A DNA stretch of 30,276 nucleotides from a virus, in IMG/VR virus record IMGVR_UViG_3300032092_000164, positions 1 through 30,276 of that record. One strand, written 5' to 3'. Position 1 is the stretch's first letter, and each line of letters starts with the position of its first letter. The position numbers and the translations under genes are program-made. Under the pieces are notes generated by a model. It did not search any database. It had not been told where the DNA came from and saw nothing but the letters and a program-made list of their open reading frames with translations. Below, one piece after another: positions 2,433 through 27,504 of the stretch.

Positions 2433-2447
2433 GATAATGTTTTTCTA
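2433..2447 (+). promoter_or_regulatory. Putative leaderless promoter for the sugar cassette
   Basis: GATAAT at 2433-2438 lies 8 bases before the ATG at 2447, with only GTTTTTCT between and no Shine-Dalgarno sequence. Transcription would start at or next to the start codon. Leaderless mRNAs are common in Actinobacteria. The -35 region is not evident. Confidence 0.55.
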
Positions 2448-3658
2448 TGACTCCTACCAAATCAAAGAACCCTGCTAACCGTGAACAGTTCAAAGGAACG
2501 GTTACGCTTTATTCGAATTCGCCCGACCAACCGACGGGCTATGGGCAGCAAGCCCGCTACCTAGTAGACAGATTGAAGCGTCACGGCTTCGATGTCGCTG
2601 CTCTTTCTAACTACGGACTTGAAGGAATCAAACGCGAACTAGAAACGCCTTACGGAAAGATTCCGCACTTCGCCCGGGGCTTCGATATGTATTCGAACGA
2701 TTCAGCTCCGGTAGACCACAAAACTTTTTCAGCTGCTAAGCCAAACCAACCAAACGCTATGATTACGCTCTACGACGTTTGGGTTCTTACTAATCCAGCG
2801 TTCAACGACATAGATATTCTGAGCTGGGTTCCGCTCGACCACATAACGCTGCCTCCTAGAGTCGAAGAGTTTCTAAAGAAAAAGAAAGTGACTCCGGTTG
2901 CTATGGCTCCGCACGGAGTTAGACAAATAGAAGCTAAAGGGATTGAGTGTAAATACGCACCGCACGGAATAGACACTAAAGTTCTAAAGCCGACTTATGA
3001 AATAAATGGACAATCGGTAGAAGAACATATGGGAACTAAAGACCGCTTCGTTGTAGGAATGGTAGCCGCAAATAAAAGTTCGGGCCTAGTCCACCGCAAA
3101 GCGTTCTCAGAAAATCTACTTGCCTTCTCTATCTTCCAGAAGAAGCACCCCGACGTTATGCTCTATCTTCACACCGACCCAGTTTCTAAAGGTATTGGCT
3201 GGAATCTGGTTTCGCTTCTTCAAAGCTTGGGCGTAGATAAGAACGACGTTGCCTTTCCAAATCCGTTTAGTTATCGCTACGGAATCCCGCAGGAAACTCT
3301 AGCCGGATACTATACAGGAATGGACGTTCTTCTAGCGACGTCTTACGGAGAAGGCTTCGGAGTGCCGTCGGTGGAAGCGCAAGCCTGCGGAACCCGAGTT
3401 ATTGGTTCTTCTTGGGCAGCTACTCCAGACCTTCTTTCTGAAGATTCTTTCCTAGTGGAAGGTCAGCCTTCTTGGGATTCAGGGCAGGACGCGTGGTGGC
3501 AGATTCCGAACGTGCCTTCAATCGTTGCCGCTCTCGAAGAAGCTTACAAGCTAGGCAAGGGCCGTTCACAAGTAGCAATCGACTTCGCTTCAGACTTTGA
3601 CGTGGATAAGGTTTGGACTAAATACTGGTTGCCGATTCTTCGCGAGAAATTCGCCTAA
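2447..3658 (+). CDS. Glycosyltransferase, GT4-like (GT-B fold)
   Basis: A 403-residue glycosyltransferase of the retaining GT-B type. The N-terminal Rossmann half has PTGYGQQARYL, typical of the acceptor side. The C-terminal half carries the donor-binding signature GEGFGVPSVEAQACG near residues 301-315, the E-x7-E motif of GT4 enzymes. No membrane segment is present, so it acts in the cytoplasm. It is the first gene of a three-gene cassette (TAATG overlap with the next) inserted between capsid and head-tail connector. A plausible job is to add sugar to virion proteins during assembly, or to phage DNA or host envelope. Substrate cannot be read from the sequence. Confidence 0.9.
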   Translation: MTPTKSKNPANREQFKGTVTLYSNSPDQPTGYGQQARYLVDRLKRHGFDVAALSNYGLEGIKRELETPYGKIPHFARGFDMYSNDSAPVDHKTFSAAKPNQPNAMITLYDVWVLTNPAFNDIDILSWVPLDHITLPPRVEEFLKKKKVTPVAMAPHGVRQIEAKGIECKYAPHGIDTKVLKPTYEINGQSVEEHMGTKDRFVVGMVAANKSSGLVHRKAFSENLLAFSIFQKKHPDVMLYLHTDPVSKGIGWNLVSLLQSLGVDKNDVAFPNPFSYRYGIPQETLAGYYTGMDVLLATSYGEGFGVPSVEAQACGTRVIGSSWAATPDLLSEDSFLVEGQPSWDSGQDAWWQIPNVPSIVAALEEAYKLGKGRSQVAIDFASDFDVDKVWTKYWLPILREKFA

Positions 3659-24339: not shown

Positions 24340-24846
24340 ATGAAAATCGAAACCCTACAAATCAAAGACCTAACGCCCGACCCAGCTAACGCTAGGCAAC
24401 ACGACGAAAAGAACCTAAAGGCGATTCAAGGTTCCCTAAAAAACTTCGGTCAGCGTAAGCCCATAGTCCTAAGCGAAGGGGGCGTAATCGTTGCTGGGAA
24501 CGGAACCGTCGAAGCGGCGAAGCGTTTAGGGTGGCTAGAGATTCAAGCCGTTAGAGTCCCGGGCGACTGGACACCAGAGCAGACTAAAGCCTTCGCTCTA
24601 GCGGATAACCGAACCGCCGAACTAGCAACTTGGTCGCCTGAAGTCCTAGCTAGTCAGTTGCTCGAACTAGAGGAAGCTAACTTCGTAATCGAAGACTTCG
24701 GTTTCGTAAAACTCAATCCGGCGGAACTTCCCGAAGACTTCTTCGCTGGTGCTGAAGCTCCACGGCTAGACGAACGGACAGCGATTACCTGCCCTAACTG
24801 TCTTTCTGAGATTAGAAAAACTTCTAAGGGTTATGAAGTTGTTTGA
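24340..24846 (+). CDS. ParB/Srx-like protein with zinc ribbon
   Basis: A 168-residue protein with a ParB N-terminal-type domain: LTPDPANARQHDEKNLKAI, FGQRKPIVL, GGVIVAGNGTVEAAKRLGW and ALADNRTAELATW. The C-terminus carries a short zinc-ribbon-like CPNC. In phages this domain often accompanies DNA-modifying enzymes, and here it overlaps the Mom-like gene by 14 bases. It could use CTP, bind DNA or direct the modification enzyme; which is unknown. Confidence 0.88.
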   Translation: MKIETLQIKDLTPDPANARQHDEKNLKAIQGSLKNFGQRKPIVLSEGGVIVAGNGTVEAAKRLGWLEIQAVRVPGDWTPEQTKAFALADNRTAELATWSPEVLASQLLELEEANFVIEDFGFVKLNPAELPEDFFAGAEAPRLDERTAITCPNCLSEIRKTSKGYEVV

Positions 24847-25501
24847 AATAAAGCTAGTAAACCAGCAAGCCGCTTTATTTGCCGTAAAGAATTGGCACTA
24901 CTCGAAGAGCATTCCGGCTTCAAAGCTGGTTAGATTCGGCGTATTCGAAGAAGATAAATACATTGGCGTAATAATCTTTAGCCGCGGAGCCTCCCCATTC
25001 CTCGGCAATTCTCTCGGATTAGACCAAACTGAAGTATGCGAACTAACGAGAGTAGCCCTAACGAATCACAAAACCCCGGTCAGTCAGTTAGTAGCTCAAT
25101 GCCTAAAGAACCTAAAAGAACTAAACCCGGGACTTCGTTGCGTTATTAGTTTTGCTGACCCAAAGGAGGGACATAAGGGAGGAATCTATCAAGCTGGAAA
25201 CTGGCTATTTACCGGAGCTAGTAATTCAGTAGTCGAGTATTTTATAGGCGGTCGTTGGATGCACACTAGAAACGCTTATAACTTACCCGAAAGACCCTTT
25301 GCTCCTAGTCGAGTTAGTCCCGGAAAGTTTCGCTACATTTACCCGCTAGATAAGCAACTTCGTAGAAAGGTGGCTAAACTAGCCTTACCCTATCCAAATG
25401 CGGTCGAGGGCTTAGAGGTAAGCCACGGGGATTCCGTTTCCGAGGTGCTGGTTCAATCCCAGCCGACCGCTCCAACTTCGTTAGCTGTCAAGCCCCTTTA
25501 G
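24833..25501 (+). CDS. Mom-like DNA modification protein (GNAT fold)
   Basis: A 222-residue protein with the Mom/GNAT layout: KNWHYSKSIPASKLVRFGVFE, CELTRVAL, VISFADPKEGHKGGIYQAGNW and GRWMHTRNAYNL. Phage Mu Mom converts adenine to a modified base that resists restriction; many phages carry similar genes next to ParB-like ones. Substrate specificity here is unknown. The conserved part ends at LALPYPN; the final 33 residues are encoded by DNA that folds as a tRNA-Gly (25400-25474), so the ORF may read through a tRNA gene. Confidence 0.85.
   Translation: MKLFEIKLVNQQAALFAVKNWHYSKSIPASKLVRFGVFEEDKYIGVIIFSRGASPFLGNSLGLDQTEVCELTRVALTNHKTPVSQLVAQCLKNLKELNPGLRCVISFADPKEGHKGGIYQAGNWLFTGASNSVVEYFIGGRWMHTRNAYNLPERPFAPSRVSPGKFRYIYPLDKQLRRKVAKLALPYPNAVEGLEVSHGDSVSEVLVQSQPTAPTSLAVKPL
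25400..25474 (+). tRNA. tRNA-Gly(UCC), overlapping the Mom-like ORF
   Basis: The 75 bases fold as a full cloverleaf: 7-bp acceptor (GCGGTCG with CGACCGC), D arm GGCT-8-AGCC with GGTA in the loop, anticodon arm CGGGG-ATTCCGT-TTCCG (anticodon TCC, U33 present, two G-U pairs), 4-base variable region, T arm GCTGG-TTCAATC-CCAGC, then T73 and encoded CCA. G1, C2, G3, U73 and C35-C36 fit tRNA-Gly identity. Base 8 is A and base 14 is T, the reverse of the usual U8-A14 pair. GGA, its codon, is heavily used by this phage. Confidence 0.85.
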
Positions 25502-25538
25502 GGGATTGGGAAACTAAAAAAATTTTTAAGGGAAGCTA

Positions 25539-25988
25539 ATGCCAGCCGGAAGACCAACTAAACCAGCAGAGATAAAGCGACTAACTGGCAATCCCGGCAA
25601 GCGCGCTCTGCCCGAGCAATCGGCAATAATGCTAATCCCGCAAGCCAGCGAAACTCCAGAACCCGCTAGACCACTCCTAAAATACGGGCAAGAACTTTGG
25701 GACAGGGTTTGGCAATCTGGCATAAATTGGATATCTCCAAACACCGACCTAGAAATTCTTCTTATGACTTGCGAGCTAATCGACGAACGCTGGAATCTTC
25801 GAGTGCGAGTTATGACAGATAACAACCCGAAAGACCGCCGGGGACTTCGAGAGATTGACAGACAAATCGTTTCGAATCTAGGGCTTCTAGGATTCACTCC
25901 GTCCGACCGCTCTCGATTAGGCGTGGCAGAAGTAAAGAAAATGAGCAAGCTGGAAGAGCTAATGGCGAAAAAGGCTAACCGTGAATAG
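25539..25988 (+). CDS. terS: Terminase small subunit, P27-like
   Basis: A 149-residue DNA-recognition subunit. MPAGRPTKPAEIKRLTGNPGKR is the P27-type opening, followed by a helical body with LLKYGQELWDRVW and a C-terminal SDRSRLGVAEVKK helix. It binds the packaging site and brings DNA to the large subunit. AAGGGA ribosome site; overlaps terL by eight bases. Confidence 0.92.
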   Translation: MPAGRPTKPAEIKRLTGNPGKRALPEQSAIMLIPQASETPEPARPLLKYGQELWDRVWQSGINWISPNTDLEILLMTCELIDERWNLRVRVMTDNNPKDRRGLREIDRQIVSNLGLLGFTPSDRSRLGVAEVKKMSKLEELMAKKANRE

Positions 25989-27504
25989 TTGGCCCCCGCT
26001 TTGGCTAACTCCAGTTCCCAAGAAAGCTATCGAACAAGGCGACGGAGAAATAGTAATCGAGTTCTCGGAAACCTTCGGGACTATCGGTAAAGACGGAATC
26101 GCCGGAAAGGTTGGCGACGCTCTAAAGCTACGCGACTGGCAGAAAGAACTAATTCGTCACGTCTATGCCCGCGACGAAAACGGCGGCCTTATTGCGAAAA
26201 CTTGCCTAATCGGAGAACCGCGCAAAAATGGCAAGAGCGCGCTCGCTTCAGTTAGCTTTGGACTCTATTCTCTTCTCGCTGAAGGAATAGACGGCGGGGA
26301 AGTTTATTCAATCGCCGCTGAAAAAGAACAGGCTCGAATCGTATTCGGTGAAGCTAAGAGGATTGTCGAGTCTACGGAACTAAGCGAAATGGTCAAGGTA
26401 TACCGGGACGCACTATTTGTTCCGGCAACTAACTCCGTCTATCGTGTTCTTTCCGCTGAGAGTTTTTCCAAAGAGGGATACAATCCGCATAGGGTAATCG
26501 CCGACGAATTACACGCGCACAAAGACCGTTCACTCTTTGACGTTATGAGTTTGGCTATGGGAAACCGTGGAAGTATTGCTCAGCTAATCGCAATCACAAC
26601 CGCTGGAGTAAAAAAGGATATGACAGGTGGCGACTCTATTGCTTACAACTTGTTCCAGTATGGGCAGAAGGTTTCGCGCGGAGAAGTAAAAGACCCTTCT
26701 TTCTTTATGGCGTGGTGGGCAGCACCGGACGAAGCCGACCACCGCGACCCGAAAGTTTGGGAGCAAGCTAACCCGGGCTTCGACGACTTGGTAGACAAGG
26801 CAGACTTCGAGAGCGCAGTAAAGCGAACACCCGAAGCGGAGTTTAGAACCAAGCGACTAAACCAATGGGTATCTTCCCAGACCGCTTGGCTCCCGGCTGG
26901 AACTTGGGACGAACTGAAAAGCGAACGGGAACCTAGCCCCGACGACGAAATCATTCTGGGGTTCGACGGTTCGTTCTCCGGCGACTGTACCGTTCTAGTT
27001 GCTTGCGTAATCCCAAAGACCGAAGAAGATAAACCGTTCCTTTGGCTAGTCAAGGAATGGGAAAAAGACCTAACTATCCACGACGACTTATGGCGCGTAG
27101 ATATTCAAGAAGTCGAAGAAACGATTATGAACTTTATTCAGAAATACCCGAAGACCCGAGAAGTAGCTTGCGACCCTTTCCGCTGGCAACGCTCTATGGA
27201 AGTCCTAGCAGACCGGGGAGTTCCGATTGTCGAGTGGCCTTCGACTTCACCGAAGCGAATGGTTCAAGCTTGCGCTAAATTCTACGACGCAGTCACGGGC
27301 GGAACCGTAGAACACGATGGAAGCCCAGTTCTATCAAGGCACTTAGATAACGCCGTAACCAAGATAGACAACTTGGGAATCCGTATCGTAAAAGAGAATC
27401 GTCATTCTCCCCGGAAGATTGACGCAGCGGTAGCCGCAGTAATAGCCTTCGATAGAGCAGTTAGCAGTAGAATAGAAGAAATGGTTCCCGACTTCTTTTT
27501 CTAA
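25981..27504 (+). CDS. terL: Terminase large subunit
   Basis: A 507-residue packaging motor starting at GTG. Walker A-like GEPRKNGKSA (78-87), Walker B VIADE (D175, E176) and the coupling region ATTAGV-type (AITTAG, about 205) make the ATPase. The nuclease has D329 (GFDGS), D398 (CDPFR) and D481 (KIDAAVA). It cuts concatemers and pumps DNA into the prohead through the portal encoded downstream. Length is typical. Confidence 0.97.
   Translation: MNSWPPLWLTPVPKKAIEQGDGEIVIEFSETFGTIGKDGIAGKVGDALKLRDWQKELIRHVYARDENGGLIAKTCLIGEPRKNGKSALASVSFGLYSLLAEGIDGGEVYSIAAEKEQARIVFGEAKRIVESTELSEMVKVYRDALFVPATNSVYRVLSAESFSKEGYNPHRVIADELHAHKDRSLFDVMSLAMGNRGSIAQLIAITTAGVKKDMTGGDSIAYNLFQYGQKVSRGEVKDPSFFMAWWAAPDEADHRDPKVWEQANPGFDDLVDKADFESAVKRTPEAEFRTKRLNQWVSSQTAWLPAGTWDELKSEREPSPDDEIILGFDGSFSGDCTVLVACVIPKTEEDKPFLWLVKEWEKDLTIHDDLWRVDIQEVEETIMNFIQKYPKTREVACDPFRWQRSMEVLADRGVPIVEWPSTSPKRMVQACAKFYDAVTGGTVEHDGSPVLSRHLDNAVTKIDNLGIRIVKENRHSPRKIDAAVAAVIAFDRAVSSRIEEMVPDFFF
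27468..27477 (+). promoter_or_regulatory. TARRATAGAA motif near the end of terL
   Basis: TAGAATAGAA, 37 bases before the ATG at 27514. A promoter for the portal/protease operon is plausible; it lies in the terL coding sequence. Confidence 0.45.

Follow-up and report, generated by a model that had tools for sequence, protein, structure and literature searches.

A mom gene with a tRNA-Gly in its 3' end

We analysed a linear virus record of 30,276 bases (IMG/VR record IMGVR_UViG_3300032092_000164; "the window" denotes this whole stretch of DNA), in which overlapping genes for a ParB-like protein and for a DNA-modifying protein of the Mom family lie upstream of the terminase genes (Table 1). This pair of open reading frames (ORFs), its positions, its 14-base overlap and its place were borne out as given in a preliminary description made from the sequence alone. 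That description had missed the only tRNA gene detected in the window by ARAGORN and Rfam, a tRNA-Gly(TCC) with encoded CCA that lies within the 3' end of the mom ORF. The element scored 43.3 bits against the RF00005 covariance model (cut-off 29), folds into a near-canonical full cloverleaf (class I, see below) and has all identity points of bacterial glycyl-tRNA synthetase (GlyRS), i.e., G1-C72, C2-G71, G3-C70, U73, C35, and C36.

The mom product matched Pfam family PF25680 over residues 4–188 (E 5e-45, 154 bits; curated cut-off 27.1) and phrog_1384 (E 4e-53). This homology stops at residue 188/189, which corresponds to the base immediately before the start of the tRNA-Gly. With the tRNA-Gly so placed, the true Mom domain comprises 189 residues; the final 33 codons (102 nt) of this frame are made up of the tRNA sequence and a short stretch beyond it. 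An AlphaFold2 (AF2) model of the 189-residue domain had a predicted local distance difference test score (pLDDT) of 95.5. Its best match in the PDB was phage Mu Mom (8bv8, TM 0.79–0.80, Z 19.4), followed by GNAT acetyltransferases; the window and Mu proteins share family and fold at 24–27% identity. In a pairwise alignment, Ser84 of the window Mom is opposite Ser124 of Mu Mom, and this position is occupied by S or T in 38/38 relatives. The S124A mutant of Mu Mom is termed inactive in the title of its PDB entry. The two loci differ in that Mu has no tRNA-like element after mom, while the window and its relatives have one, and in that mom of Mu is preceded by com, whereas the gene upstream in the window encodes the ParB-like protein with one CxxC and not a Com zinc-finger translational activator.

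Directly past the tRNA, at the mom stop codon (25489–25530), lies a CCCCTTTAGGGG hairpin followed by AAAAAAATTTTT, which was also seen in two related contigs (L206, L234) and is a possible terminator or processing signal.

Table 1. Features of the ParB-like/mom locus and the adjoining terminase genes in the window
Feature	Position	Strand	Description
ParB-like gene	24340..24846	+	168 aa; ParB/Srx N-domain and C-terminal tail
CPNC motif of ParB-like protein	24790..24801	+	single CxxC, kept as CPxC
Overlap of ParB-like and mom frames	24833..24846	+	14 nt
mom ORF as given by the ORF caller	24833..25501	+	222 aa
Conserved Mom domain	24833..25399	+	189 aa; fold GNAT-like, closest to Mom of phage Mu (8bv8)
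tRNA-Gly(UCC) gene with encoded CCA	25400..25474	+	within 3' end of mom ORF; proposed dedicated glycyl carrier
Anticodon TCC of tRNA-Gly	25433..25435	+	position counted on the sequence
Terminase small subunit	25539..25988	+	fixed end of swappable modification-gene slot
Terminase large subunit	25981..27504	+	served as control query

Distribution and structure of mom-linked tRNA-Gly-like elements

We compared the window with its 80 nearest Mom relatives in IMG/VR (45–100% identity; 81 sequences in total). ARAGORN reported a tRNA adjoining mom in about one third of these, and each isotype assigned there was Gly. Over all loci, tRNAs near mom with an assigned isotype were Gly, apart from two unrelated tRNAs about 1.8 kb upstream. 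Inspection by eye, together with a stringent scan for a 7-bp stem GC.../...GC with a T behind it and a spacer of 40–66, placed an element after mom in 78 sequences, at a chance background of 0.046 per site. The remaining three also had a tRNA-Gly, with one mismatch in L060 and after a second mom copy in L016 and L018, so that a tRNA-Gly or tRNA-Gly-like element followed mom in 81/81 sequences overall. In L016 (from ~1070) and L018 (from ~1007), the mom genes are in tandem and a single tRNA-Gly is located behind the second.

A second set, seeded with Mom of Enterococcus phage phiEf11, contained the element in nearly all environmental contigs, while Moms of the Enterococcus/Paenibacillus/Yersinia type had none. 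Among phage isolates, the element was present but unannotated in Arthrobacter phage Martha, was a tRNA-Gly with anticodon CCC on the opposite strand in Microbacterium phage Appa, and was annotated as tRNA-Gly in Salinibacter phage B2_17. Bacterial genome contigs with the element derived from Calditrichota, Acidobacteriota, Planctomycetota, Thermodesulfobacteriota, a metagenome-assembled genome of a spirochaete, and others. Individual checks of the Moms of Mu, Listeria A511, Staphylococcus Alsa_2, Pseudomonas JD024, Escherichia E21, and Exiguobacterium vB_EauM-23 yielded no convincing element. A tree of 91 Moms requires five changes in presence or absence of the element and 23 in its class; the window Mom belongs to a clade of mostly class I that also contains actinobacterial Moms. 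The suggestion that the virus is an actinophage fits this clade, which includes the Arthrobacter and Microbacterium isolates, but is not proven by it.

Two controls showed that the element tracks mom. Among 80 contigs retrieved via the window terminase, of which those with more than 1.2 kb upstream were counted (window included), the element was present in 9/9 contigs with mom and in 0/47 without mom (Fisher p 1e-10). ARAGORN alone left four of the mom-positive contigs without a tRNA, all of which have class II elements. Six of the nine encode a different, Mu-like Mom (27–29% identity) and have the element as well, and thus two distant Mom subfamilies share this feature. Conversely, a scan of IMG/VR on the RNA pattern alone recovered 47 elements of class II, 44 of them with mom upstream, and 81 of class III, 80 of them with mom upstream (124/128). 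The exceptions were two contig ends, one that ends with a Mom-like C-terminus, and one without recognisable mom (L355). The latter, a class II-like element at 2150–2250, is graded as an orphan or relic. The class I copy of the window escaped RNA model R1, and class I is covered poorly by both R1 and R2.

The elements fall into three classes. The window copy belongs to class I, the cloverleaf form. Class II elements (about 72 nt) have a small D arm, which those of class III (64–66 nt) lack. Both of the latter classes have a six-position T stem with a purine.A mismatch (G.A in 62 and A.A in 6 of 70), resulting in a 7+6 acceptor/T stack. In class II, 97.6% of cells are paired and both sides have changed in 16/21 pairs; in class III, these values are 98.4% and 10/17. 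None of 500 shuffles matched the percentage of pairing or the covariation, and sliding the partners abolished pairing. The compensatory changes support the structures of classes II and III as predicted from the aligned sequences. None of 20 class II/III loci reached the gathering score of the Rfam tRNA model RF00005, for which reason we call these elements tRNA-like. Most elements are degenerate, and most are missed by ARAGORN and Rfam.

Features that do not fit decoding occur in 70 of ~95 distinct elements (40 without a D stem, 46 without U33, 68 with the T-stem mismatch), the 46 lacking U33 being counted among 70 non-class-I forms. A8 replaces U8 in 90/97 elements, class I included. Glycine identity (G1-C72, C2-G71, U73, C35C36) is kept in the relatives while decoding features are lost, although G1-C72, C2-G71, and U73 were scan criteria and their constancy is partly due to selection; the scan caught essentially every locus of the first set. 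The anticodon varies at N34 (ACC, TCC, CCC, GCC) with C35C36 constant, and CCA is encoded in 61/70 degenerate forms. Judged from these features, the reduced elements are probably unable to serve translation. The Mom frame is open across the element in 77/93 cases, compared to 45 and 27 for the other frames (rows not independent), which suggests that the mom tail is translated.

The ParB-like partner and the modification-gene slot

The ParB-like protein matched phrog_620 (E 4e-38) and, under the gathering score of 26.3, Pfam ParB_N (PF02195, E 0.001, 19.5 bits). Its AF2 model was most similar to 7bnr, 7bnk, and 6sdk and thus has the ParB/Srx N-domain fold. At the position of the CTP motif the window has GNGTVEA and its relatives mostly GHGR; the canonical GERRxR is not intact in the window. 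One C-terminal CPxC is kept in all listed homologues. The motif underlying the previously proposed C-terminal CPNC ribbon is present, but a single CxxC makes only half a ribbon.

The ParB-like gene is located directly upstream of mom, mostly overlapping it, in 111/121 loci, and the pair is thus conserved across related phages. Across sister phages, the ParB-like gene keeps its place next to terminase but its neighbour varies (slot up to the terminase small subunit, 24340–25988 in the window; L203–L282). This slot holds an N6/N4 methyltransferase, a C5 methyltransferase pair, a TET-associated glycosyltransferase (TAGT), an ABC-GNAT protein, or either of two Mom subfamilies. As it accompanies interchangeable modification genes, the ParB-like protein appears to be a general companion of DNA-modifying enzymes and not specific to Mom; its likeliest role would be DNA loading or target choice. 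Phage ParB-domain methyltransferases (phrog_498; PADLOC MTase_II) are comparable, in that their N-terminal ParB part matches the window protein and both are tied to modification. There, the two parts are fused, whereas the window protein is separate, has a CPxC tail, and is partnered with Mom.

In L227 and L230, an ABC-ATPase fused to a GNAT-like domain is encoded between the ParB-like gene and terminase; it resembles a GNAT-ABC system predicted to modify bases in jumbo phages (PMC7824862). In the window, the genes after mom encode the two terminase subunits, small and then large, and the portal. A glycosyltransferase-like gene (2447–3658, phrog_2170) has capsid genes on one side and tail genes on the other. 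With respect to the proposed virulent lifestyle, no integrase was found among the window ORFs scanned, which are a subset of all ORFs.

Putative glycyl carrier RNAs for Mom

The hypermodified base of phage Mu is an adenine-linked glycinamide, according to the title of Swinton 1983 in the reference list of PMC4461284, and Mu hypermodification is reported to depend on tRNA-Gly for glycyl transfer (2025 meeting report, PMC12908700). Given both, an RNA with glycine identity that is tied to mom would most simply supply this glycine. We therefore regard the locus as a Mom-type adenine hypermodification module that consists of the ParB-like protein, Mom, and a mom-linked tRNA-Gly or tRNA-Gly-like RNA acting as dedicated glycyl carrier, and assign this reading a probability of roughly 0.83. 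The RNA would be transcribed and released from the mom transcript and charged with glycine by the host GlyRS via the retained identity elements. Mom would then take the glycyl group from the RNA to form glycinamide-adenine and block restriction; the chemistry of the product and, according to the meeting report, the dependence on tRNA-Gly are known only for Mu. The degenerate forms have probably lost the use by EF-Tu and ribosomes, with the odd T stem and the missing U33 keeping the RNA off both, so that its glycine would be reserved for DNA. The ParB-like protein, which seems to accompany phage DNA-modification enzymes in general, may contribute DNA loading or target choice.

Known RNAs offer partial parallels. 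In Staphylococcus, a non-proteogenic tRNA-Gly donates glycine for the pentaglycine bridges of the cell wall; like the proposed element, it is kept from translation and is a glycine donor to a GNAT-fold transferase. It is chromosomal, a cloverleaf, and serves peptidoglycan, whereas the mom element is phage-borne, fused to the gene of its user, often D-armless, and proposed to serve DNA. Bacterial tRNA-Sec has a 13-bp acceptor/T stack, a possible parallel to the 7+6 stack with regard to EF-Tu avoidance, and D-armless mitochondrial tRNA-Ser shares the missing D arm with class III. In contrast to both, the mom elements have glycine identity, a G.A mismatch in the T stem, and no expected decoding role.

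Several points weigh against a dedicated carrier. Excision of the tRNA would cut the mom message within its ORF, and the near-canonical cloverleaf of the window could decode as well. Moreover, the Moms of Mu and its close relatives, Enterococcus, Paenibacillus, Yersinia, and Pseudonocardiaceae are without the element, which is thus not obligatory; lineages without it presumably rely on host tRNA-Gly. One alternative is an action in cis, in which the mom message would end in a tRNA-like structure that donates no glycine and governs how this message is processed, stabilised, or translated, through autoregulation by Mom or GlyRS. Such control would suit the overlap with the mom ORF, the Mom frame that is open more often than the other two, and the tight regulation and overexpression toxicity of mom in Mu (PMC4461284). 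We nevertheless consider it unlikely, because the Appa tRNA-Gly is on the opposite strand, the element elsewhere lies behind a second mom copy or 50–80 nt downstream, and encoded CCA together with strict glycine identity suggests charging.

An ordinary phage tRNA-Gly that aids glycine decoding in the host, and is found beside mom by chance or through shared late expression, would explain the cloverleaf, TCC anticodon, and encoded CCA of the window copy, and GGA is the most used glycine codon of the window genes (211/492). This explanation is very improbable in view of the near-exclusive Gly isotype of tRNAs near mom, the non-decoding features of most elements, A8 even in class I, and the lack of the element in all 47 mom-less sister contigs. 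Many prophages use tRNA genes as attachment sites, and the element might be such a site or the remnant of a past integration at a host tRNA-Gly gene. Its place between mom and terminase, the lack of an integrase among the scanned ORFs, its tracking of mom, the paired changes kept in all stems, and D-armless forms unable to match a host tRNA make this the most far-fetched of the explanations. Attachment-site relic, decoding supplement, and chance overlap were accordingly rejected on the grounds of mom linkage, non-decoding features, and paired stem changes.

The DNA-modification module proposed in the preliminary description is thus supported by the sequence and fold of Mom, by its pairing with the ParB-like gene, and by the methyltransferases and glycosyltransferase beside the ParB-like gene in sister phages. 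This interpretation was right in kind and incomplete for the RNA component: the notion of a stand-alone two-gene system does not hold in that form because the tRNA-Gly gene built into mom is a third component conserved across the family. The tRNA-Gly dependence of Mu Mom has already been announced, in the one meeting report (PMC12908700) that our search recovered on mom and tRNA; phage-borne, mom-fused tRNA-Gly-like RNAs were not described in the literature searched, with preprints and most subscription journals outside its reach.

Beyond the window, we consider it likely that widespread phages and prophages encode glycyl carriers that take no part in decoding, namely dedicated RNAs with a reduced or missing D arm, a 7+6 acceptor/T stack, a conserved purine.A mismatch, and encoded CCA, which are fused to the gene of the DNA modifier consuming their glycine and function in DNA modification instead of protein synthesis. 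The elements tie the old puzzle of the source of Mom's glycinamide to a genetic signature across many phage lineages and lend independent support to tRNA-Gly dependence of Mom beyond Mu. They are candidates for compact natural substrates of GlyRS and Mom and represent RNA genes overlooked by standard annotation, while the ParB-like gene flags a slot of exchange for phage DNA-modification enzymes. If the proposed function is true, a tRNA-like RNA would have a role in DNA modification, and phages would use a glycine carrier of their own to disguise their DNA from restriction enzymes.
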